Below, one piece after another: positions 27,030 through 36,105 of a DNA stretch of 64,000 nucleotides. Both the position numbers and the translations under genes were made by a program. The stretch spans positions 2,151,001 to 2,215,000 of the forward strand of contig NZ_CP004372.1 of the NCBI RefSeq assembly GCF_000590925.1, read 5' to 3'. Each line of letters opens with the position of its first letter. Position 1 is the first letter of the stretch. Under the pieces are notes generated by a model. That model saw only the letters and a program-made list of their open reading frames with translations, ran no database searches and was not told the origin of the DNA. Source of the stretch: Roseibacterium elongatum DSM 19469 (GTDB taxonomy: Bacteria; Pseudomonadota; Alphaproteobacteria; Rhodobacterales; Rhodobacteraceae).

Positions 27030-28091
27030 ATGTTGGAAAACCTGCTGATCACATGGGGCGAACCGCTGGTGCTGGGTGGTGCCGGGGCGCTGACAGGTCT
27101 GCTTTTCGGCTGGGCCGCGCAACGCTCGCGGTTTTGCCTGCGGGCGGCCACGGTCGAGGTGGCCGAGGGGCAGGCGGGCTCGAAACTGGCCATCTGGCTG
27201 ATCGTGTTCGCCACCGCCGTGATGCTGACGCAACTGGCCATCGCGACCGGCATTCTGGACGTGCGCGATGCCCGCCAACTGGCCGCGACCGGCAGCCTGT
27301 CGGGCGCCATTGTCGGCGGGCTGATGTTCGGGATCGGCATGGTGCTTGCGCGCGGCTGTGCCAGCCGTTTGCTGGTCTTGTCGGCGACGGGCAACCTGCG
27401 GGCGCTGGTCACCGGGTTGGTCGTGACCCTTGTGGCGCAGGCCAGCTATACCGGCGTGCTTGCGCCGTTGCGTGAACAGATCTCGCAAATGTGGCTGGTC
27501 GGCGGCAGCGCCCGCGACCTTGGCCCGGTGCTGGGGCTGGCGCATGGACAGGTGGCGGCGGTGGCCGGTCTTGGGCTGCTCGGGGCCGTGGTTCTGGCCT
27601 GGCGGCGTGCGGTCAGCCTGGGTGTCATGATCGCGGCGTTTTTCGTGGGCGCCGCCGTGACGCTGGGCTGGGTGGCGACCTATGCCATCGCCTCCAATTC
27701 CTTCGAGATCGTGCCGGTCCTGTCGGTGACCTTCACGGGCCCGGCCACCGATACGCTGATGGCCCTGGTCACGGAACGCTCGGTCGTGCTCAGCTTCGGG
27801 ATCGGCCTTGTGCCGGGCGTTTTCGTTGGCTCGGGCACGTCGGCCCTGCTGGCCCGCGAGTGGAAGCTGGAACGCTTCGGCCCCGACACGCCGATGGAGC
27901 GCTACCTGATCGGGGCGACCCTGATGGGGTTCGGGGCCATGCTGGCCGGGGGCTGCGCCGTGGGCGCGGGTGTCTCGGGGGGCGCGGTCCTGTCACTGAC
28001 GGCCTGGACGGCGGTGTTCTGCATGTGGCTGGGGGCCATCGCGACGACGCGCATGCTGAACCGCGCCGGGCCAGCCCCCGCCACGGCCTGA
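27030..28091 (+). CDS. YeeE/YedE-family sulfur transporter (second copy)
   Basis: A 353-residue polytopic membrane protein with the same three cysteine motifs as the SoxT-like gene at 13288: RFCLRAATVE, ARGCASRLLV and GGCAVGAGV. It probably imports thiosulfate or another sulfane-sulfur compound. It sits downstream of hemA behind its own FNR-type promoter. Its end lies 42 bases from the end of the convergent regulator gene. Confidence 0.78.
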   Translation: MLENLLITWGEPLVLGGAGALTGLLFGWAAQRSRFCLRAATVEVAEGQAGSKLAIWLIVFATAVMLTQLAIATGILDVRDARQLAATGSLSGAIVGGLMFGIGMVLARGCASRLLVLSATGNLRALVTGLVVTLVAQASYTGVLAPLREQISQMWLVGGSARDLGPVLGLAHGQVAAVAGLGLLGAVVLAWRRAVSLGVMIAAFFVGAAVTLGWVATYAIASNSFEIVPVLSVTFTGPATDTLMALVTERSVVLSFGIGLVPGVFVGSGTSALLAREWKLERFGPDTPMERYLIGATLMGFGAMLAGGCAVGAGVSGGAVLSLTAWTAVFCMWLGAIATTRMLNRAGPAPATA

Positions 28092-28132
28092 ACGCGGGCG
28101 ATCCCGGCCACCCCGGCCGCTGCCGCCGGTCT

Positions 28133-29538
28133 CTAGCTGGCATACCGGGTCGCGCCGCGCCGTTTTTCGTCGACCGGTTCCGAAGGACCACCGCGTTATG
28201 GGCGCGCTGGTCGCAATTCACCCGCGGGCAGATACGGCAGTTGATGCCGATCGGCGTCGGATGCGTGTGACTGGCGCGCAGATCCTCGCCATAGCCGATC
28301 TGGTCCAGATGTTCGGTCGCGCAGCCCATGGCGACGGCGAGGCGCACATCCTGGTTGTGGCGCGTTACGCTGGGGCGGTCGACCGTGCGCGAAAAGACGA
28401 AAAACTGGCTGGCATCGGGCATCTCGACGAATTGCGGCACGATGCGCCCCGGTGTCCGGAACGAGGTGTGCACGTCCAGCCGGGGGCAGGCGCCGCCATA
28501 TTCGGCCAGATGGAAATCGGTCGCGTTGAAGCGCTTGGTGACATTTCCGGCCTTGTCCACACGCAGGAAGAAGAACGGCACGCCCTGCGCGCCCGAGCGC
28601 TGCAGCGTGGTCGCGCGGTGGCAGGCCTGTTCGAAACTGACCCCGAAGCGCGTGGCCAGATGGTCGAAATCGTATTTACAGCTCAGCGCCTCGGACAGGT
28701 ATGGGCCATAGGGCATCAGCACGGCCGCGGCGAAATAGTTGGACAGTTCGACCCGACAGCGCGCCAGGCCATGCGCATCGTCGATACCCGATTGCGCCAG
28801 GATCGTGTCCAGCATCCCTTTGTGTTCGATCAGACCTGCCACATGGACTAGTTGGAATACCCGGTTGGGATGGTCCAGCGCCTCGGACAGCAGCACCTCG
28901 CGCCGGTCTTCGTCGTATTCGCGCAAGGAATCGGGCATGTCGTTGACGGTGACCAGCCGCACGCGCAGGCCCAGCCTGTCCATCAGACGTGCCTTGAGGG
29001 CGGCGTAGATATCGTCCGGCTCGACGCGGCGACCGTCCCAGAAGGTTTCCGCCGCCTGTTCCAGCGCCTCGAAATAGTTGTGATGGCGCCGGAAAAAGTT
29101 GTGGACCGCCGCCTCGGGCGAGGTGGTCAGCATCTGCGCCGCATCGCCCGAGCCGCCCGCGACACTGGCCAGTTGGTCGGTCGCGGCCAGATAGGCGCGG
29201 TGCAGCTTCAGGAACGAGGCCACCAGATCCGGCGCGTGGATCTGTGCGGCCCGCATCTGTGTAAGGTCGGGTCGATTGGCCTCGAAGAAACTGTCCTGCA
29301 AGGCGGCGCGCAGATCGGCCAGAACGGCGGTGTCGTCGTCTTCCGCGATCTCGCGCCAGTCGACCCCATAGACATCGAACAGTTTCAGCAGCACCGGCAC
29401 CGAGACGCTGCGTTCGTTCTTTTCCAGCAGGTTAACGTAGGAGGTCGAGATGCCAAGCGCCTTGGCCATCTGGGCCTGTGTCTGATCGTGGTCCAGCCGC
29501 AGGCGGCGCAGACGGGGGCCGATGAAGGTTTTCAGCAT
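28133..29538 (-). CDS. XRE-family short-chain-acyl-type transcriptional regulator (frameshifted near C-terminus)
   Basis: An N-terminal XRE helix-turn-helix (RLRRLRLDHDQTQAQMAKALG then TSYVNLLEKNER) is followed by an ImmA/IrrE-like domain and the ScfR/RamB C-terminal domain with PTPIGINCRICPRVNC. In the written frame translation continues past the family end antisense into the YeeE gene. One missing base near 28177-28182 restores PVDEKRRGATRY plus a stop at 28133, giving about 468 residues, the family norm. Such regulators sense acyl-CoA status and control glyoxylate, propionate or ethylmalonyl-CoA genes. It is divergent from the aminotransferase/malyl-CoA cluster it likely controls. Confidence 0.8.
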
Positions 29539-29565
29539 GCCTTTGTATCCAGAAAATTTCACAAG

Positions 29566-29603
29566 TTTACAGATTTTATAGCATGTAAATTCTCGCATTT
29601 ACA
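29566..29603. promoter_or_regulatory. Operator-like TTTACA/TGTAAA repeats in divergent promoter
   Basis: TTTACA (29566-29571), TGTAAA (29584-29589) and TTTACA (29598-29603) form alternating half-sites. The last two make the perfect palindrome TGTAAATTCTCGCATTTACA. They sit 28 to 65 bases upstream of the regulator start and about 80 to 120 bases upstream of the aminotransferase gene. The probable ligand is the adjacent XRE regulator. Confidence 0.6.
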
Positions 29604-29684: not shown

Positions 29685-30887
29685 ATGAAAACCGGTCAGA
29701 CCCATCTCTTCATTCCCGGCCCCACCAATGTGCCGGATGACGTGCGCCGCGCGATGAATATCGGCCAGCAGGACATGCGCGCGTCGGATTTCGGGGATCT
29801 GACCATCGGTCTGTTCGAGGATCTCAAGCAGGTTTTTCGCACCCGCACCGGCGAGGTGTTCCTGCTGCCGGGGTCCGGCACCGGCGCGTGGGAAGCAGCA
29901 ATCACCAACACGCTGAACCCTGGCGACAAGGTCCTGATGGCCCGCTACGGCCAGTTTTCCGACCTGTGGGTGCAGATGGCGCAGCGCCTTGGCCTCGAGG
30001 TCGAGGTGATCGACGTGGCCTGGGGCGCAGGCGTGCCGGTGGCCGAGTTCGAGCGTCGCCTCGGCGCCGACACGCGCGACGAGATCAAGGCGGTGTTCGT
30101 CACCCATAACGAAACCGCGACCGGCGTCGTGTCGGATGTGGCGGCCGTGCGCCGGGCGCTCGATGCGTCCTTCCACGATGCGCTGCTCTTCGTGGATGGC
30201 GTCAGCTCCATCGGGTCGATCGATTTCCGCATGGATGACTGGGGCGTCGACCTTGCCGTGACCGGCAGCCAGAAGGGGCTGATGTGCCCCGCCGGTCTGG
30301 GTATTCTGGCGGTCAGCGCCAAGGCGGCCGTCGCGGCAAAGACCTCGACCATGCGCCGCGCCTTTTTCGAGTTCGAGGATATGCGCGCCATGAACGCGGG
30401 GGGCTATTTCCCCTACACGCCGCCCACCATGTTGCTGCATGGCCTGCGGGCCGCGCTCGACCGGATCTTCGCCGAGGGGTTGGACGAGGTCATCGCACGC
30501 CACGCCCGCCTGGCCGAGGGCATCCGCCGGGGCATCCATGCCTGGGGTCTCGACCTCGTGGCCGAGCACCCGTCGCTCTATTCGAACACCGTCTCGACAA
30601 TCCGCACCCCCGACGGGGTCGATGCGCGCGAGGTGATCCGGATCGCCTATGACGAGATGAACACCAGTTTCGGCTCGGGCCTCGGGCGTCTGGCGGGCAA
30701 GGCGTTCCGCATCGGGCATCTGGGTGACCTGAACGAGGGGATGTGCCTGACGGCCCTGTCCATCGCCGAGATGGCGCTGGTGCGCGCAGGCGCGCAAATC
30801 CCGATGGGCGCCGGCGTGGCCGAGGCGCAGAGGCATTTCACAGGGGTGGCGACGGCGCAACCCAGGCTGCGCATCGCGGCCGAGTAA
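29685..30887 (+). CDS. sgaA: Serine-glyoxylate aminotransferase
   Basis: A 400-residue class V aminotransferase that makes hydroxypyruvate and glycine from serine and glyoxylate, a core serine-cycle reaction. The N-terminus HLFIPGPTNVPDDV and the PLP lysine K197 in TGSQKGLMCPAGLG are typical. It is first in a six-gene run (aminotransferase, malyl-CoA lyase, two malate-CoA ligase subunits, hydratase, CoA-transferase) and is preceded by the TTTACA repeats. Confidence 0.9.
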   Translation: MKTGQTHLFIPGPTNVPDDVRRAMNIGQQDMRASDFGDLTIGLFEDLKQVFRTRTGEVFLLPGSGTGAWEAAITNTLNPGDKVLMARYGQFSDLWVQMAQRLGLEVEVIDVAWGAGVPVAEFERRLGADTRDEIKAVFVTHNETATGVVSDVAAVRRALDASFHDALLFVDGVSSIGSIDFRMDDWGVDLAVTGSQKGLMCPAGLGILAVSAKAAVAAKTSTMRRAFFEFEDMRAMNAGGYFPYTPPTMLLHGLRAALDRIFAEGLDEVIARHARLAEGIRRGIHAWGLDLVAEHPSLYSNTVSTIRTPDGVDAREVIRIAYDEMNTSFGSGLGRLAGKAFRIGHLGDLNEGMCLTALSIAEMALVRAGAQIPMGAGVAEAQRHFTGVATAQPRLRIAAE

Positions 30888-30911
30888 CAGACTGTAAAAA
30901 GGAAGAAACCC

Positions 30912-31853
30912 GTGTCTCACACGCTTCACCCGCTGCGGCGGCAACGGCTGCATCGTTCCGAACTGGCCGTGCCGGCCTCGAACCCCGCGATGGTCGAAAA
31001 GGCAGCCGAAAGCGCCGCCGATGTCGTGTTTCTCGACCTCGAAGACGCCGTCGCGCCCCCCGAGAAGGAACAGGCGCGCAAGAACGCCGTGCAACTGCTC
31101 AACGACATCGACTGGAACGCCAAGGGCAAGACGGTCAGCGTGCGCATCAACGGGCTCGATACCCACTACATGTATCGCGATGTGGTCGACATCATGGAGC
31201 AGGCCGGCGACCGGCTGGACACGATCCTGGTGCCCAAGGTGGGCGTGCCCGCCGACCTGTATATGGTCGAGGCCATGGTCAACCAGATCGAGCAGGCCCG
31301 CGGACAGGAAAAGCGCGTCGGCCTCGAGGCGTTGATCGAAACCGCGCTTGGCATGGCCAATGTCGAGGCCATCGCGCAATTCGGCGGGCGGCTGGAATGC
31401 CTGCATTTCGGGGTGGCTGATTATGCGGCGTCGATGCGGGCGCGAACGGTCAATATCGGCGGGCTGAACCCGGATTATCCGGGCGATCAGTGGCACGCCT
31501 CGATCACGCGGATGGTGATCGCGTGCCGTGCCTACGGGCTTCGCGCCGTCGATGGCCCGTTCGGCGATTTCAGCGATCCCGAGGGCTACAAGGACGGCGC
31601 GCGCCGCGCCGCCGCGCTGGGCTGCGAGGGCAAATGGGCGATCCACCCCAGCCAGATCGAACTGGCCAACGAGGTCTTCAGCCCGCCCGAGGCCGAGGTG
31701 ACGCGCGCCGAGCGCATCATCGAAGAACTCAAGAAAGCCGAGGCCGAGGGGCGTGGCGCTGCCAGCCTCGACGGCAAGATGATCGACGCGGCCAGCGAGA
31801 AGATGGCCCAGAACGTGATCGACGTGGCCCGCGCCATCGCGGCCAAGTCTTAA
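30912..31853 (+). CDS. mcl1: L-malyl-CoA / beta-methylmalyl-CoA lyase
   Basis: A 313-residue CitE-like TIM-barrel enzyme. Key segments are VPASNPAMVEKAA, VFLDLEDAVAPPEK (acidic Mg ligand), LEALIETALGMANVE, HFGVADYAAS and KWAIHPSQIE. It cleaves malyl-CoA to acetyl-CoA and glyoxylate, and in Rhodobacter-type enzymes also makes or cleaves beta-methylmalyl-CoA (propionyl-CoA plus glyoxylate). The start codon is GTG at 30912. It lies between the aminotransferase and malate-CoA ligase genes, the usual serine-cycle linkage. Confidence 0.9.
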   Translation: MSHTLHPLRRQRLHRSELAVPASNPAMVEKAAESAADVVFLDLEDAVAPPEKEQARKNAVQLLNDIDWNAKGKTVSVRINGLDTHYMYRDVVDIMEQAGDRLDTILVPKVGVPADLYMVEAMVNQIEQARGQEKRVGLEALIETALGMANVEAIAQFGGRLECLHFGVADYAASMRARTVNIGGLNPDYPGDQWHASITRMVIACRAYGLRAVDGPFGDFSDPEGYKDGARRAAALGCEGKWAIHPSQIELANEVFSPPEAEVTRAERIIEELKKAEAEGRGAASLDGKMIDAASEKMAQNVIDVARAIAAKS

Positions 31854-31904
31854 CCTAGCGGCGGCGCGCGCCCGATGCGCGCGCCCGGATCGGAGGGAAA
31901 GAAG

Positions 31905-33083
31905 ATGGATATTCACGAATACCAGGCCAAGGAAATCCTTGCGGGGTTCGGGGTTCCCGTCCCGCGTGGCGGTCTTGCCTATTCGCCCGAACAGGCGGCC
32001 TATCAGGCCCGGCAACTGGGCGGCGACGCCTGGGTGGTCAAGGCGCAAATCCATTCGGGCGGCCGTGGCGAGGCCGGCGGCGTCAAGGTCTGCCGCTCCG
32101 AGGCCGAGATCCGCGACTATGCGCAATCCCTGCTGGGCACGCAGTTGGTGACCAAGCAGACCGGCGCGGGCGGCAAGGGGGTCTATCGCCTCTGGGTCGA
32201 GGAAGCGACCGACATCGCACAGGAGATCTACCTGGGCTTCGTGCTCGATCGGAAAACCGAACGGATCATGATCGTGGCCTCGGGCCATGGCGGCATGGCG
32301 ATCGAGGAATTGGCCGAAAGCGACCCCGACAGCCTGGTGCGCATGGTGATCGATCCGGCCACCGGCCTGGTCGAATACCAGACACGGGAACTGGCGTTCA
32401 AGCTGGGGCTCAAGGGCAAGCAGATCGGCCAGATGGTGACCATGCTGCGCGCCTGCTACCGCGCCTATCGCGATCTCGACGCCATGATGGTCGAGGTCAA
32501 CCCGCTGGCCATTACCGGCACCGGCGATCTGGTGGCGCTGGATGCGAAGATGAGCTTCGACACCAATGCGCTTTACCGCCGCCCGCAGGTCGAGGCGCTG
32601 CGCGATACCAGCCAAGAGGACGCGCGCGAGGCGATGGCCGCCGATAACGGCCTGGCCTATGTCGGCCTCGATGGCGACATCGGCTGCATCATCAACGGCG
32701 CCGGTCTGGCCATGGCGACGATGGACATGATCAAGCTGGCCGGCGGCGAACCTGCAAATTTCCTCGATATCGGCGGCGGGGCCAGCCCGGAACGCGTCGT
32801 GACGGCGTTTCGCACGGTTCTGACCGATCCCAAGGTCGAGGTGATCCTCGTCAACATCTTCGCCGGCATCAATCGTTGCGACTGGATCGCGAAAGGGGTC
32901 GTTCAGGCCTACGAGGAGGTCGGCCTGACCATTCCCGTCGTGGTGCGCCTGTCGGGCACCAATGTCGAAGAGGGGCGGCGCATCATCGAGACCTCGGGCT
33001 TGCCACTGATCTCGGCCGAGACACTGGCCGGCGCGGCCGAGGCCGCCGTGGCCGCCCGCCCGCATCCCGTTGCCGCCGAATAA
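31905..33083 (+). CDS. mtkA: Malate-CoA ligase, beta subunit (malate thiokinase)
   Basis: A 392-residue ATP-grasp subunit of the succinyl-CoA synthetase family. Recognisable parts are MDIHEYQAKEIL at the N-terminus, KAQIHSGGRGEAGGVKV (nucleotide loop), MVEVNPLAITG, and the C-terminal DIGGGA and VNIFAGINRCD. Pairing with malyl-CoA lyase identifies malate rather than succinate as the likely acid. The reaction is malate + CoA + ATP to malyl-CoA. Confidence 0.87.
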   Translation: MDIHEYQAKEILAGFGVPVPRGGLAYSPEQAAYQARQLGGDAWVVKAQIHSGGRGEAGGVKVCRSEAEIRDYAQSLLGTQLVTKQTGAGGKGVYRLWVEEATDIAQEIYLGFVLDRKTERIMIVASGHGGMAIEELAESDPDSLVRMVIDPATGLVEYQTRELAFKLGLKGKQIGQMVTMLRACYRAYRDLDAMMVEVNPLAITGTGDLVALDAKMSFDTNALYRRPQVEALRDTSQEDAREAMAADNGLAYVGLDGDIGCIINGAGLAMATMDMIKLAGGEPANFLDIGGGASPERVVTAFRTVLTDPKVEVILVNIFAGINRCDWIAKGVVQAYEEVGLTIPVVVRLSGTNVEEGRRIIETSGLPLISAETLAGAAEAAVAARPHPVAAE

Positions 33084-33095
33084 GGAGACAGAACC

Positions 33096-33992
33096 ATGGC
33101 TATTCTGATCACCGAGACCACGAAAGTCCTCGTGCAGGGGATGACCGGCCGCATCGGCCAGTTCCACACCCAGGAAATGATCGACGAGGGCACGAATGTC
33201 GTGGCCGGCGTCACCCCCGGCAAGGGCGGCACCACCGCGCTTGGCCGGCCCCAGTTCGACACCGTGCGCGAGGCGGTCGAGGCCACCGGGGCCGAGGCGT
33301 CGTTGTTGTTCGTGCCGCCGCCCTTTGCCGCCGACGCCATGATGGAGGCCGCCGATGCGGGCATCAAGACCTGCGTCTGCGTCACCGACGGTCTGCCCGC
33401 GCAGGACATGATGAAGGTCAAGCGCTTTCTCCGCCGCTACCCGCGCGAAAAGAAGATGCGCCTGATCGGGCCCAACTGCGCCGGCATCATCAGCCCCGGC
33501 AAGGGGTTCATGGGGATCATGCCGCCGCATATCTACAAGCCCGGCCGCGTGGGTATCGTGGGCCGCTCGGGCACCCTGGGCTACGAGGCCGCCAGCCAGA
33601 TGTCGGCGCTCGGCATCGGTATTTCGTCCTCCATCGGGATCGGCGGCGACCCGATCAACGGCTCGTCCTTCCGCGACATTCTCGAATTGTTCGAGGCCGA
33701 CCCCGAGACCGACGCCGTGATGATGATCGGCGAGATCGGCGGCCCGCAAGAGGCCGAGGCCGCGCAATTCGTCCGCGAGCACATGACCAAGCCGGTCGTG
33801 GCCTATGTCGCGGGCCTGTCCGCCCCCAAGGGCCGCAAGATGGGTCACGCGGGGGCCATCATCTCGGCCTTTGGCGAAAGTGCGCAGGAAAAGGTCGAGA
33901 TCCTGCAGGAGGCCGGCATTACCGTTGCGCCCAACCCCTCGGTCATGGGTGAGACCGTGGCACGTGTTCTTGGTGTAAAGGCGGCCGCATGA
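33096..33992 (+). CDS. mtkB: Malate-CoA ligase, alpha subunit
   Basis: A 298-residue CoA-binding subunit. The N-terminal QGMTGRIGQFHTQEM motif, GPNCAGIISPG and the phosphohistidine H251 in GHAGAIIS match SucD-type proteins. It starts 12 bases after the beta subunit. Its stop overlaps the next gene by four bases, tying the hydratase-like gene to the same transcript. Confidence 0.87.
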   Translation: MAILITETTKVLVQGMTGRIGQFHTQEMIDEGTNVVAGVTPGKGGTTALGRPQFDTVREAVEATGAEASLLFVPPPFAADAMMEAADAGIKTCVCVTDGLPAQDMMKVKRFLRRYPREKKMRLIGPNCAGIISPGKGFMGIMPPHIYKPGRVGIVGRSGTLGYEAASQMSALGIGISSSIGIGGDPINGSSFRDILELFEADPETDAVMMIGEIGGPQEAEAAQFVREHMTKPVVAYVAGLSAPKGRKMGHAGAIISAFGESAQEKVEILQEAGITVAPNPSVMGETVARVLGVKAAA

Positions 33993-34867
33993 GCCGCGTG
34001 GAGACATTTCCCATGGTCGCAATGCGCGAGGCCGAGGAGTGGGTCGGCCGGACCGAAGAACGCTGGGGCTGTCTGACGCCGGAACTGGCCGGCATGATGA
34101 GCGCCGCCGTCTCGCACCCGCTGTCGCTGCGGCGGGATGTGCGGCGTGGCTGCCTGATGCCTCGGCTGTGGCACTGGGCGGCCTTTCCGGAATTCGTGCC
34201 GCTCAGCCAACTGGCCGAGGACGGGCATCCGAAACTGGGCGATTTCCTGCCGCCGCTGGCCTTCAAGCGGCGGATGTGGGCGGCGGGCAAGCTGTCGTTC
34301 TCCGGTTCGCTGCGCATCGGCGAACGCCTGCGGCGCATCTCGACCATCAAGTCGGTGACCCCCAAGACGGGGGGCACCGGCGATATGGTCTTTGTCACGG
34401 TGACCCATCAGATCGAGGGCGAGACGGGCTGCTTCGTCGAGGAAGAGCAGGATATCGTCTACCTGCACATCCCCGACGAGTTCAAAGCGCCAAAACGCAT
34501 TCCCGAACTGGAAACGCCCGATTTCGACGAGACCGTGCCAATCAACGAAGCACGGCTTTTCCGTTTCTCGGCGGCCACCTACAATGCGCATCGCATCCAT
34601 TACGACCTGCCCTATGCGCGCGAGGTCGAGAAGTATCCGGCCCTTGTCACACACGGGCCGATGCAGGCTATCATGCTGATGGAGACGGCCAAGCGTCATG
34701 TGGGAGAACCGCCAAGGCGCTTTCGCTTTCGTGGCGTGCATCCGATGTTCCACAGCCATGATCTGCGGCTTCAGGGGCGCCTCGCGCCAGGTGGGAAATC
34801 GATGGATCTGGGAACGGCAGCGCCCGAGGGCTACCTCGGCATGCAAGCAACGGCGGAGTGGGACTGA
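33989..34867 (+). CDS. Mesaconyl-C4-CoA hydratase-like protein (HTD2/MaoC hotdog family)
   Basis: A 292-residue double-hotdog protein resembling the HTD2 group, to which mesaconyl-C4-CoA hydratase of Chloroflexus belongs. Typical parts are the N-terminal WAAFPEFVPLSQLAEDGHP and the active-site region RFSAATYNAHRIHYD, with the catalytic Asn/His cluster and THGPMQAIMLME after it. In the 3-hydroxypropionate bi-cycle this enzyme turns mesaconyl-C4-CoA into citramalyl-CoA. Itaconyl-CoA or another unsaturated acyl-CoA is an alternative substrate. It overlaps mtkB and the following CoA-transferase. Confidence 0.75.
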   Translation: MSRVETFPMVAMREAEEWVGRTEERWGCLTPELAGMMSAAVSHPLSLRRDVRRGCLMPRLWHWAAFPEFVPLSQLAEDGHPKLGDFLPPLAFKRRMWAAGKLSFSGSLRIGERLRRISTIKSVTPKTGGTGDMVFVTVTHQIEGETGCFVEEEQDIVYLHIPDEFKAPKRIPELETPDFDETVPINEARLFRFSAATYNAHRIHYDLPYAREVEKYPALVTHGPMQAIMLMETAKRHVGEPPRRFRFRGVHPMFHSHDLRLQGRLAPGGKSMDLGTAAPEGYLGMQATAEWD

Positions 34868-36105
34868 TGGGAATTCTCGATGGTATGCGCGTGGTCGAAG
34901 GTTCGGCCTTTGTCGCTGTTCCGCTGGCGGGTATGACGCTGGCGCAGATGGGGGCGGATGTGATCCGTTTCGACCGGTTGCAGGGGGGCCTCGATGCGGG
35001 CCGTTGGCCTGTGACCCGCGACGGCCAAAGCCTGTTCTGGGCCGGCCTGAACAAGGGCAAACGGTCTATCGCGATCGACATGAAACACCCGCGCGGGCGC
35101 GAGATCATCACCGAGATCATCACCGCGCCAGGCGAGGATGCCGGCCTGTTCATCACCAACCTGCGCGTGCGCGGCTGGATGGACCACGAAACCCTGTCGG
35201 CCCGCCGCCCCGACCTGTGCATGGTCACGCTGATGGGTGACCGCCACGGGCGTCCGGCGGTCGATTATACCGTCAACCCGGCCATCGGTTTTCCCGAGGC
35301 GACCGGCCCCGAAGGCTCGACCGAGCCGGTGGCCCATGCCCTGCCGGCCTGGGACTGCATTGCCGGCAACATGGTGGTCAGCGCACTGCTGGCGGCCGAA
35401 CGCAAGCGCCTGCGCACGGGGCAGGGCAGTGCCGTGGACCTGTCGCTCAAGGATGTGGCGGCCGCCATGCTGGGGCATCTGGGCATCATCGGCGAGGTCG
35501 AGGTGAACGGCGTGTCGCGGCCCAAATCGGGCAATGCGCTTTACGGCGCCTACGGGCAGGATTTCCTCTGCGCCGATGGCGAGCGCGTGATGGTGATCGG
35601 GCTGACCGACCGGCAATGGCGCGGCCTGCTGAACGTGACGGGCACGACCGAAGACATGGCCGCCCTGGAAACGCGCCTTGGGGAAAGCCTGCGCGACGAA
35701 GGCGCGCGGTTCCGCCATCGCCACGCCATCACCGAGGTGCTGCGCCCGTGGTTCGCCGCCCGCAGGCTGGCCGATTTCGCTGCGCATTTCGACGAGGCCG
35801 GGGTGACGTGGTCGATCTTTCGCGACTTTGCTCGCGCCGTGGCCGAGGACCCGGATCTGTCGCTGGACAACCCGATGTTCAGCCGGATCGAGCAGCCGGG
35901 CATCGGCACCTTCAAGGTGCCGGGCACGCCGTTCTCCTTTTCCTCGGAACCACGCGAGGCGCCGCGTGCGGCGCCGGCCCTCGGCGCGCATACCGAGGCG
36001 ATCCTGGGCGACGTGGCGCGCTTGCCCGATAGCGAGATCGCCGCGCTGTTCGATCAGGGGATCGTGCAACAGGCCCCGGCCAGCGAGGTGCAGCTGGCCT
36101 GTTGA
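34867..36105 (+). CDS. CaiB/BaiF (class III) CoA-transferase, mesaconyl-CoA C1-C4 transferase-like
   Basis: A 412-residue class III CoA-transferase. The N-terminus GMRVVEGSAFVAVPLAGMTLAQMGADVI is standard for the family; D163 in PAWDCIAGN is the plausible catalytic aspartate. The sequence feel is that of 2-methylfumaryl-CoA isomerase (mesaconyl-CoA C1-C4 CoA transferase). Pairing with an HTD2-type hydratase and malyl-CoA lyase supports this. Succinyl-CoA:malate or itaconate CoA-transferase remain alternatives. Its ATG shares one base with the upstream TGA. Confidence 0.72.
   Translation: MGILDGMRVVEGSAFVAVPLAGMTLAQMGADVIRFDRLQGGLDAGRWPVTRDGQSLFWAGLNKGKRSIAIDMKHPRGREIITEIITAPGEDAGLFITNLRVRGWMDHETLSARRPDLCMVTLMGDRHGRPAVDYTVNPAIGFPEATGPEGSTEPVAHALPAWDCIAGNMVVSALLAAERKRLRTGQGSAVDLSLKDVAAAMLGHLGIIGEVEVNGVSRPKSGNALYGAYGQDFLCADGERVMVIGLTDRQWRGLLNVTGTTEDMAALETRLGESLRDEGARFRHRHAITEVLRPWFAARRLADFAAHFDEAGVTWSIFRDFARAVAEDPDLSLDNPMFSRIEQPGIGTFKVPGTPFSFSSEPREAPRAAPALGAHTEAILGDVARLPDSEIAALFDQGIVQQAPASEVQLAC

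Follow-up and report, generated by a model that had tools for sequence, protein, structure and literature searches.

An operon of malate-CoA ligase, malyl-CoA lyase and Mct- and Meh-like genes in Roseibacterium elongatum, with a likely role in draining mesaconyl-CoA to pyruvate

The 3-hydroxypropionate bi-cycle has been reported outside the Chloroflexota (PMC9802188), and partial versions of it are described from heterotrophic proteobacteria such as Kentron (PMC6593406). Here we describe an operon, sgaA-mcl-mtkA-mtkB-meh-mct, in Roseibacterium elongatum DSM 19469, a member of the Roseobacter group that contains bacteriochlorophyll a (PMC4149021). It lies in a 64,000-nucleotide stretch of DNA (the window, G000:C1:2151001-2215000) within a single contig of 3,555,109 bases, and operon positions are given within the window. 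The operon probably encodes a module of central carbon metabolism that handles CoA esters, resembles the second half of the bi-cycle with malate-CoA ligase (MtkAB) in place of SmtAB, and is wired to the ethylmalonyl-CoA pathway. It appears to be a new variant that combines known pathways, and to judge from its genes it is likely to drain mesaconyl-CoA to pyruvate. A search of titles and abstract openings in the open-licence literature, which does not cover subscription papers, found no published account of this gene arrangement.

Genes and enzymes of the operon

Six genes run on the plus strand from 29685 to 36105 with overlaps or short gaps, much as an earlier reading of the sequence alone had described them; the list of open reading frames gives this order, and start and stop codons were checked. 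They are sgaA (29685-30887), for a class-V aminotransferase (PF00266); mcl (30912-31853, GTG start), for a malyl-CoA lyase of the HpcH/HpaI family and of Methylobacterium extorquens type; mtkA (31905-33083) and mtkB (33096-33992), for the beta and alpha subunits of malate-CoA ligase; meh (33989-34867), for a putative mesaconyl-C4-CoA hydratase or itaconyl-CoA hydratase of the FAS1/HTD2 type (PF13452); and mct (from GTG 34858 or ATG 34867 to 36105), for an Mct-like CoA-transferase of family III. The intergenic gaps are 24 bases (sgaA/mcl), 51 bases (mcl/mtkA) and 12 bases (mtkA/mtkB), mtkB and meh overlap by 4 bases, and meh and mct overlap as well. A scan for promoters and terminators gave one promoter-like site (1.4 in shuffled sequences) and eight terminator-like sites (4.9 in shuffled sequences, standard deviation 2.3) and was not used as evidence.

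The similarity of the CoA-transferase supports its assignment to the Mct kind, as the sequence-only reading had proposed. Against solved structures it scores 512 bits with the Mct chain of Roseiflexus and 501 bits with that of Chloroflexus, the next family following at 110 bits, and it is 56% identical to Chloroflexus aurantiacus Mct. In the alignment it retains the catalytic Asp165 and also Leu43, Arg47 and Arg104 of the Chloroflexus enzyme, with Asp165 and Leu43 invariant across the 10 aligned sequences. Leu or Ile at position 43 is conserved in all intramolecular CoA-transferases of the Mct kind (PMC9813914).

The hydratase scores 166 bits with itaconyl-CoA hydratase 8khg and is 42% identical to its Roseiflexus homologue, 40-42% to Chloroflexi Meh and 39% to Pseudomonas aeruginosa itaconyl-CoA hydratase; on the hydratase tree the itaconyl-CoA hydratase (Ich) row falls in a starred 17-row set that excludes the window hydratase. 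Itaconyl-CoA hydratase doubles as a mesaconyl-C4-CoA hydratase (PMC12290011), and the product expected here is therefore the same under either label.

MtkA scores 673.9 bits with the malate-CoA ligase beta model NF010647, exceeding its cut-off of 604. MtkB passes only succinate-CoA ligase alpha models (NF004230, 428.1 bits, cut-off 336) and is called the malate-CoA ligase alpha subunit because of its partner. A separate sucCD-like pair lies at L087:13587-15667. The lyase shares 66% identity with the Mcl of M. extorquens, 51% with that of Rhodobacter sphaeroides and 40% with that of C. aurantiacus, and it keeps Arg76, Ala167 and Asp299 (R. sphaeroides numbering). It is also a candidate citramalyl-CoA lyase. 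Such an activity would not be new to the Mcl family, since R. sphaeroides Mcl forms citramalyl-CoA in vitro, reaching a citramalyl-CoA to acetyl-CoA ratio of only about 1:2.5 at a 200-fold excess of pyruvate (PMC3832036). SgaA is a candidate serine- or aspartate-glyoxylate aminotransferase, with either compound as donor; it scores 563.8 bits with the BhcA model, missing the cut-off of 650, and 398.9 bits with a serine-glyoxylate aminotransferase of the PDB.

The ligase, hydratase and lyase could also be arranged into a catabolic pathway for C5-dicarboxylates (itaconate, mesaconate or citramalate), in which the ligase would activate the free acid, the hydratase would act as itaconyl-CoA hydratase and the lyase would complete the sequence. 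The near-equal distance of the hydratase from the P. aeruginosa enzyme and from Chloroflexi Meh would suit such a pathway, as would the restriction of MtkB to succinate-CoA ligase models. The hydratase tree does not decide the matter, and it is the transferase that disfavours the itaconate frame, as its Leu43, a hallmark of intramolecular transfer (PMC9813914), would be needless in a pathway that starts from free acids. Moreover, MtkA exceeds the malate-CoA ligase cut-off, the pathway gives no role to SgaA or to the RamB-like regulator beside the operon, and Mct is tied to this clade of MtkB and, given ccr, to the absence of Mch (see below). We regard C5-dicarboxylate catabolism as unlikely.

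Recurrence and gene co-occurrence in the Rhodobacteraceae

In a sample of 394 Rhodobacteraceae genomes, Mct matches (E <= 1e-80) occur in 67, MtkB matches of at least 500 bits in 45 and MtkB matches of 450-500 bits in 48. The stronger MtkB matches and Mct are found together in 30 genomes where 7.7 would be expected (Fisher 8e-16 with relatedness ignored), while the MtkB relatives of 450-500 bits show no association with Mct (7/48 genomes, p = 0.84); the 500-bit line was chosen after the scores were seen. Unlisted negatives in the co-occurrence sets were read from gaps in lists of positives, and the set sizes match the totals (67, 45 + 48 = 93, 42 and 34). None of the 394 genomes reaches the cut-off of 725 bits of TIGR04253 (2-methylfumaryl-CoA isomerase), the best model for the window transferase, and annotation based on this model will miss the alphaproteobacterial Mct-like enzymes.

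The genes themselves are linked. Coordinates of the 37 genomes with both matches place mtkB within 5 kb of mct in 16 of the 394 (links split over draft contigs are missed by this count), and in 14 of these loci the complete set of six genes is arranged as in R. elongatum, which bears out the view that the arrangement is non-random. One further operon, in G369, has no close sgaA. A homologue of the regulator stands divergently at 15 of the 16 operon loci. Neighbourhoods were read for 40 Mct loci, 16 regions (repeats included) and the 18 loci of a final table, which together sample the 67 Mct genomes in part. A Meh-like match adjoins Mct in 37 of the 40 loci read, two of the 37 being partial; away from the operon, the family carries meh-mct as a free-standing pair. 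Five free-standing pairs (L041, L043, L047, L049 and L059) lie near a malic-enzyme-like gene, and three of these loci also carry a propionate-CoA-ligase-like gene, both below the curated cut-offs; such neighbours suggest a propionate-related role for the free-standing pair.

Trees were built from loci whose tblastn match held no stop and covered at least 60% of the query. On each of the two trees, Mct (16 operon loci among 58 rows) and Meh (15 among 55), the operon state takes three changes. L235, L236, L237 and L240 stand outside the main operon group on both; L238 is outside it on the Mct tree and within it on the Meh tree, where the group also takes in one non-operon row (L048). These changes could mean that meh-mct became linked to mcl-mtkAB on more than one occasion, gain and loss being indistinguishable on such trees.

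SgaA, Mcl and MtkAB are enzymes of the serine cycle, and the sequence-only reading had taken that cycle as the frame of the locus. On this account the operon would serve a genuine serine cycle in a C1 metaboliser, with meh-mct as an added accessory; the operon Mcl, nearest to that of M. extorquens, fits, and R. elongatum itself has phosphoenolpyruvate (PEP) carboxylase, the serine-cycle enzyme that we examined. PEP carboxylase matches were found in 4 of 30 chosen genomes, one of them a partial match with a stop, and R. elongatum is the only one of the 16 operon genomes to have one. As the other 15 lack it (14 of them at least 99% complete and one 95%), the serine cycle is a poor and misleading label, and that frame is not supported. 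The operon moreover contains no C1 gene, and we consider it quite improbable that it serves a true serine cycle.

The CoA-ester module proposed here would draw on mesaconyl-CoA, an intermediate of the ethylmalonyl-CoA pathway. With ccr in 360 of the 394 genomes, ccr alone is useless as a discriminator; Mch is found in 352. Mct occurs in 11 of the 20 genomes that have ccr and no Mch match, against 54 of the 340 that have both (one-sided Fisher 1.3e-4). The Mch of G198, which is among these 11, is truncated; without this genome the figures are 10/19 and 55/341 (p = 5e-4), and if G068, which has a doubtful Mch end fragment, is also counted as Mch-positive they become 9/18 and 56/342 (p = 0.0015), this recheck of Mch covering the Mct-positive genomes only. 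Among genomes at least 90% complete the comparison is 6/13 against 50/309 (p = 0.014). Without conditioning on ccr, the test made first, Mch is absent from 12 of the 67 Mct genomes and from 30 of the 327 others (one-sided p = 0.034). The enrichment of Mct where ccr is present and Mch is missing is what a direct drain of mesaconyl-CoA would predict, and we take it as a hint that comes from few genomes and one clean case. That case is G274. Its ccr and second mutase are accompanied by sgaA-mcl-mtkA-mtkB and an intact meh-mct, and no convincing Mch was found (best match 30.6 bits), nor any Mcl1 or Mcl2 among the CitE-like proteins. The same loss is seen in G030, G083 and G360. No meh adjoins mct in G030 and G083, and in G360 meh is disrupted (L040, 8600-9300), with its N-terminal part in one frame, its C-terminal part in another and the middle missing, either as a pseudogene or through an assembly error. 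G164 has neither Mch nor a neighbouring meh and keeps Mcl1, and G224 has meh-mct and a weak MaoC similarity (75 bits).

A putative route from mesaconyl-CoA to pyruvate

Further enzymes of the proposed route are encoded elsewhere in the R. elongatum genome. The sequence-only reading had placed the missing mesaconyl-C1-CoA hydratase outside the window, rightly so, and had named ccr, mch and a citramalyl-CoA lyase as genes to look for in the genome. Ccr (1650502-1651674) scores 607.7 bits against a cut-off of 378.55. About 2 kb away lies a second B12-dependent mutase (1653978-1655063); the solved structures that match it name methylmalonyl-CoA mutases only, and it is taken for an Ecm-like enzyme because it adjoins ccr. 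Mch (1664699-1665748) scores 422.5 bits with a solved beta-methylmalyl-CoA dehydratase and reaches no NCBIfam cut-off, and the four MaoC-domain matches of the genome all fall outside the window. Beside Mch is a CitE-like gene that we presume to be Mcl2-like, and a Rhodobacter-type Mcl1, 85% identical to R. sphaeroides Mcl, lies around 1438345-1439061. Mct (here Mct-like), Meh (or itaconyl-CoA hydratase), Mcl and Mch of the bi-cycle second half are all encoded in this one genome. It has only three family III CoA-transferases (at 841723, at 2135920 and in the operon), and because none adjoins another there is no SmtAB pair among them.

From homology, operon conservation and co-occurrence we infer the activities of these enzymes, their direction, the cleavage of citramalyl-CoA and the regulation as follows. 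MtkAB would convert malate, CoA and ATP to malyl-CoA, Mcl would split malyl-CoA into acetyl-CoA and glyoxylate, and SgaA would aminate glyoxylate to glycine. Mct would shift the CoA within mesaconate from C1 to C4, turning mesaconyl-C1-CoA into mesaconyl-C4-CoA, which Meh would hydrate to (S)-citramalyl-CoA. The release of acetyl-CoA and pyruvate from this would then fall to a lyase, the operon Mcl being the likeliest candidate. Two sources of mesaconyl-C1-CoA are conceivable, both apparently encoded by R. elongatum: the ethylmalonyl-CoA pathway with its Ccr and Ecm, and Mcl and Mch acting on glyoxylate and propionyl-CoA. Together with the ethylmalonyl-CoA pathway the predicted sum is acetyl-CoA + bicarbonate + 2 NADPH + quinone -> pyruvate + quinol. 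The same acetyl-CoA-to-pyruvate sum is that of a designed module, for which a value of -39 +/- 9 is given (PMC10521678).

A regulator of the ScfR/RamB kind is encoded divergently from the operon on the minus strand (28183..29598, likely start 29538), its possible starts lying about 90 to 150 bases from the start of sgaA. It scores 185.5 bits with the ScfRs model PF09856 (cut-off 24) and 355.4 bits with the RamB model NF038139, missing the cut-off of 700. RamB of Paracoccus denitrificans senses CoA esters of the ethylmalonyl-CoA pathway, with the strongest response to beta-methylmalyl-CoA and a weaker one to mesaconyl-CoA (PMC10370305), and the RamB-like protein here probably senses CoA esters of the module and controls the operon. 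Its open frame (27790-29598, minus strand) outruns the similarity to homologues, which ends at about residue 472, and crosses a tRNA-Leu gene on the same strand (28040-28120).

Several observations weigh against a mesaconyl-CoA-to-pyruvate module. The transferase scores 520.5 bits with TIGR04253, below the cut-off, and for this reason we call it only Mct-like; among the CoA-cork residues it keeps R104 and carries the changes I74M, R75K and F101L. A 68-row hydratase tree and the identities do not separate Meh from itaconyl-CoA hydratase, and the operon Mcl is nearer to lyases that serve the ethylmalonyl-CoA pathway and the serine cycle than to the tri-functional enzyme of Chloroflexus. The operon of G144 lacks meh, as well as the regulator. 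Five Mct genomes are near-complete and have no convincing Mch, and of these only G274 has an intact meh beside mct. When complete genomes are compared without conditioning on ccr, Mch is absent from 6 of 56 Mct genomes and 25 of 291 others (p = 0.38).

The direction of the route could also be the opposite. Acetyl-CoA and pyruvate would then form citramalyl-CoA, and from it mesaconyl-CoA and finally glyoxylate and propionyl-CoA, regenerating glyoxylate as in the proposed citramalate cycle, which has been discussed for purple bacteria (PMC8307300). The reactions of Mcl and of the CoA-transferase are reversible and would permit this. The low citramalyl-CoA yield of R. sphaeroides Mcl under a large excess of pyruvate (PMC3832036) and the value put on the forward module (PMC10521678) speak for the other direction, however, and the genomes with Mct and no Mch would be unable to complete the reverse route. 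A reversed module is in our view very unlikely.

Draining of mesaconyl-CoA to pyruvate accordingly remains the most likely function of the branch, and of the hybrid pathway first suggested for this locus the links to the ethylmalonyl-CoA pathway and the bi-cycle are supported, while the serine-cycle frame is not. If the route runs, it would be an extra means of acetate assimilation in photoheterotrophic marine bacteria that leads straight to pyruvate, with one CO2 fixed for each pyruvate through oxygen-insensitive reactions, and it would change flux models in which glyoxylate and propionyl-CoA are the sole outputs of the ethylmalonyl-CoA pathway. More tentatively, and with somewhat less than even confidence, we suggest that marine Rhodobacteraceae have a natural, oxygen-tolerant conversion of acetyl-CoA and CO2 to pyruvate, in which the upper ethylmalonyl-CoA pathway supplies mesaconyl-C1-CoA and Mct, Meh and the operon Mcl convert this to pyruvate while giving back an acetyl-CoA, and that in some lineages, most clearly G274, this route has replaced the Mch/Mcl1/Mcl2 branch. 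Were this true, the route would be the natural form of the artificial design (PMC10521678). CO2-fixation designs would also gain Mct- and Meh-like enzymes from a marine source, together with a gene set that is co-located in nature.

Relatives outside the family and comparison with known systems

A named scan beyond the Rhodobacteraceae confirmed 537 relatives. Among the best 80 of these 537, Chloroflexi, Accumulibacter, Gemmatimonadetes and some Betaproteobacteria show a Chloroflexus-type mct-mcl-mch cluster; Competibacteraceae and Rhodoplanes show a cluster of the form meh-mcl-mct. In Contendobacter (L147) two adjacent family III CoA-transferases precede meh-mcl-mct, where SmtAB would stand; they are called SmtAB-like by family, pairing and position, as no NCBIfam model names Smt. 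In Rhodoplanes (L173) a biotin carboxylase gene precedes the cluster. In view of clusters such as that of L147, the window operon appears to be the same module, in which malate is activated by malate-CoA ligase. Modules of similar make-up seem to exist with either of two enzymes for malate activation, which, if the route runs, would make the origin of the bi-cycle second half testable.

Three further features of these relatives were seen. The mcl genes of the meh-mcl-mct clusters (L147, L148, L155, L173 and L177) form a separate clade in which Gly replaces the R. sphaeroides Ala167, a residue 100% conserved in two Mcl clusters (PMC3832036). These Gly-bearing lyases are perhaps adapted to citramalyl-CoA. 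Mct relatives also occur in 23 records of a plasmid collection, every one below 60% identity. In L138, L141 and L142 (Rubrivivax, Gemmatimonadetes and Methylibium) a weak acyl-CoA-ligase match lies behind mct-mcl-mch, with a weak Ccr-like match about 2.5 kb further on; given the architecture of that enzyme, these might be a propionyl-CoA synthase.

Given the two transferases in the SmtAB position of the Competibacteraceae cluster, the operon is best framed as the second half of the 3-hydroxypropionate bi-cycle in connection with the ethylmalonyl-CoA pathway. With the second cycle as known from Chloroflexus, and in part from Accumulibacter and Kentron, the R. elongatum genes have in common Mct, Meh, a malyl-CoA lyase and Mch (here elsewhere in the genome), the activation of malate to malyl-CoA, and acetyl-CoA and pyruvate as products. 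They differ in using MtkAB and not the SmtAB transferase, in an Mcl of M. extorquens type, in the presence of ccr, and in a transferase that shares 56% identity with Mct and stays below the TIGR04253 cut-off. The ethylmalonyl-CoA pathway of Rhodobacter and Methylobacterium is matched in ccr, the Ecm-like mutase, mch, the Rhodobacter-type Mcl1 and mesaconyl-C1-CoA as an intermediate, whereas here Mct and Meh would offer mesaconyl-CoA a second exit, to citramalyl-CoA and pyruvate. SgaA, Mcl (66% identical to the M. extorquens enzyme) and MtkAB are common to the serine cycle of Methylobacterium, from which the operon departs by including Meh and Mct and by occurring in 15 of 16 cases in a genome without PEP carboxylase. 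Itaconate and methylsuccinate degradation in Pseudomonas and Cupriavidus (Ict, Ich, Ccl) likewise has an HTD2-type hydratase able to use mesaconyl-C4-CoA and a CitE-type lyase that yields acetyl-CoA and pyruvate, but it relies on an intermolecular CoA-transferase acting on the free acid, and the window transferase bears the intramolecular hallmark. Finally, the reductive citramalyl/ethylmalonyl-CoA pathway, an in-silico design (PMC10521678), passes through the same reactions on the way from acetyl-CoA and bicarbonate to pyruvate; here, by contrast, the genes co-occur in nature and would allow such a flux.

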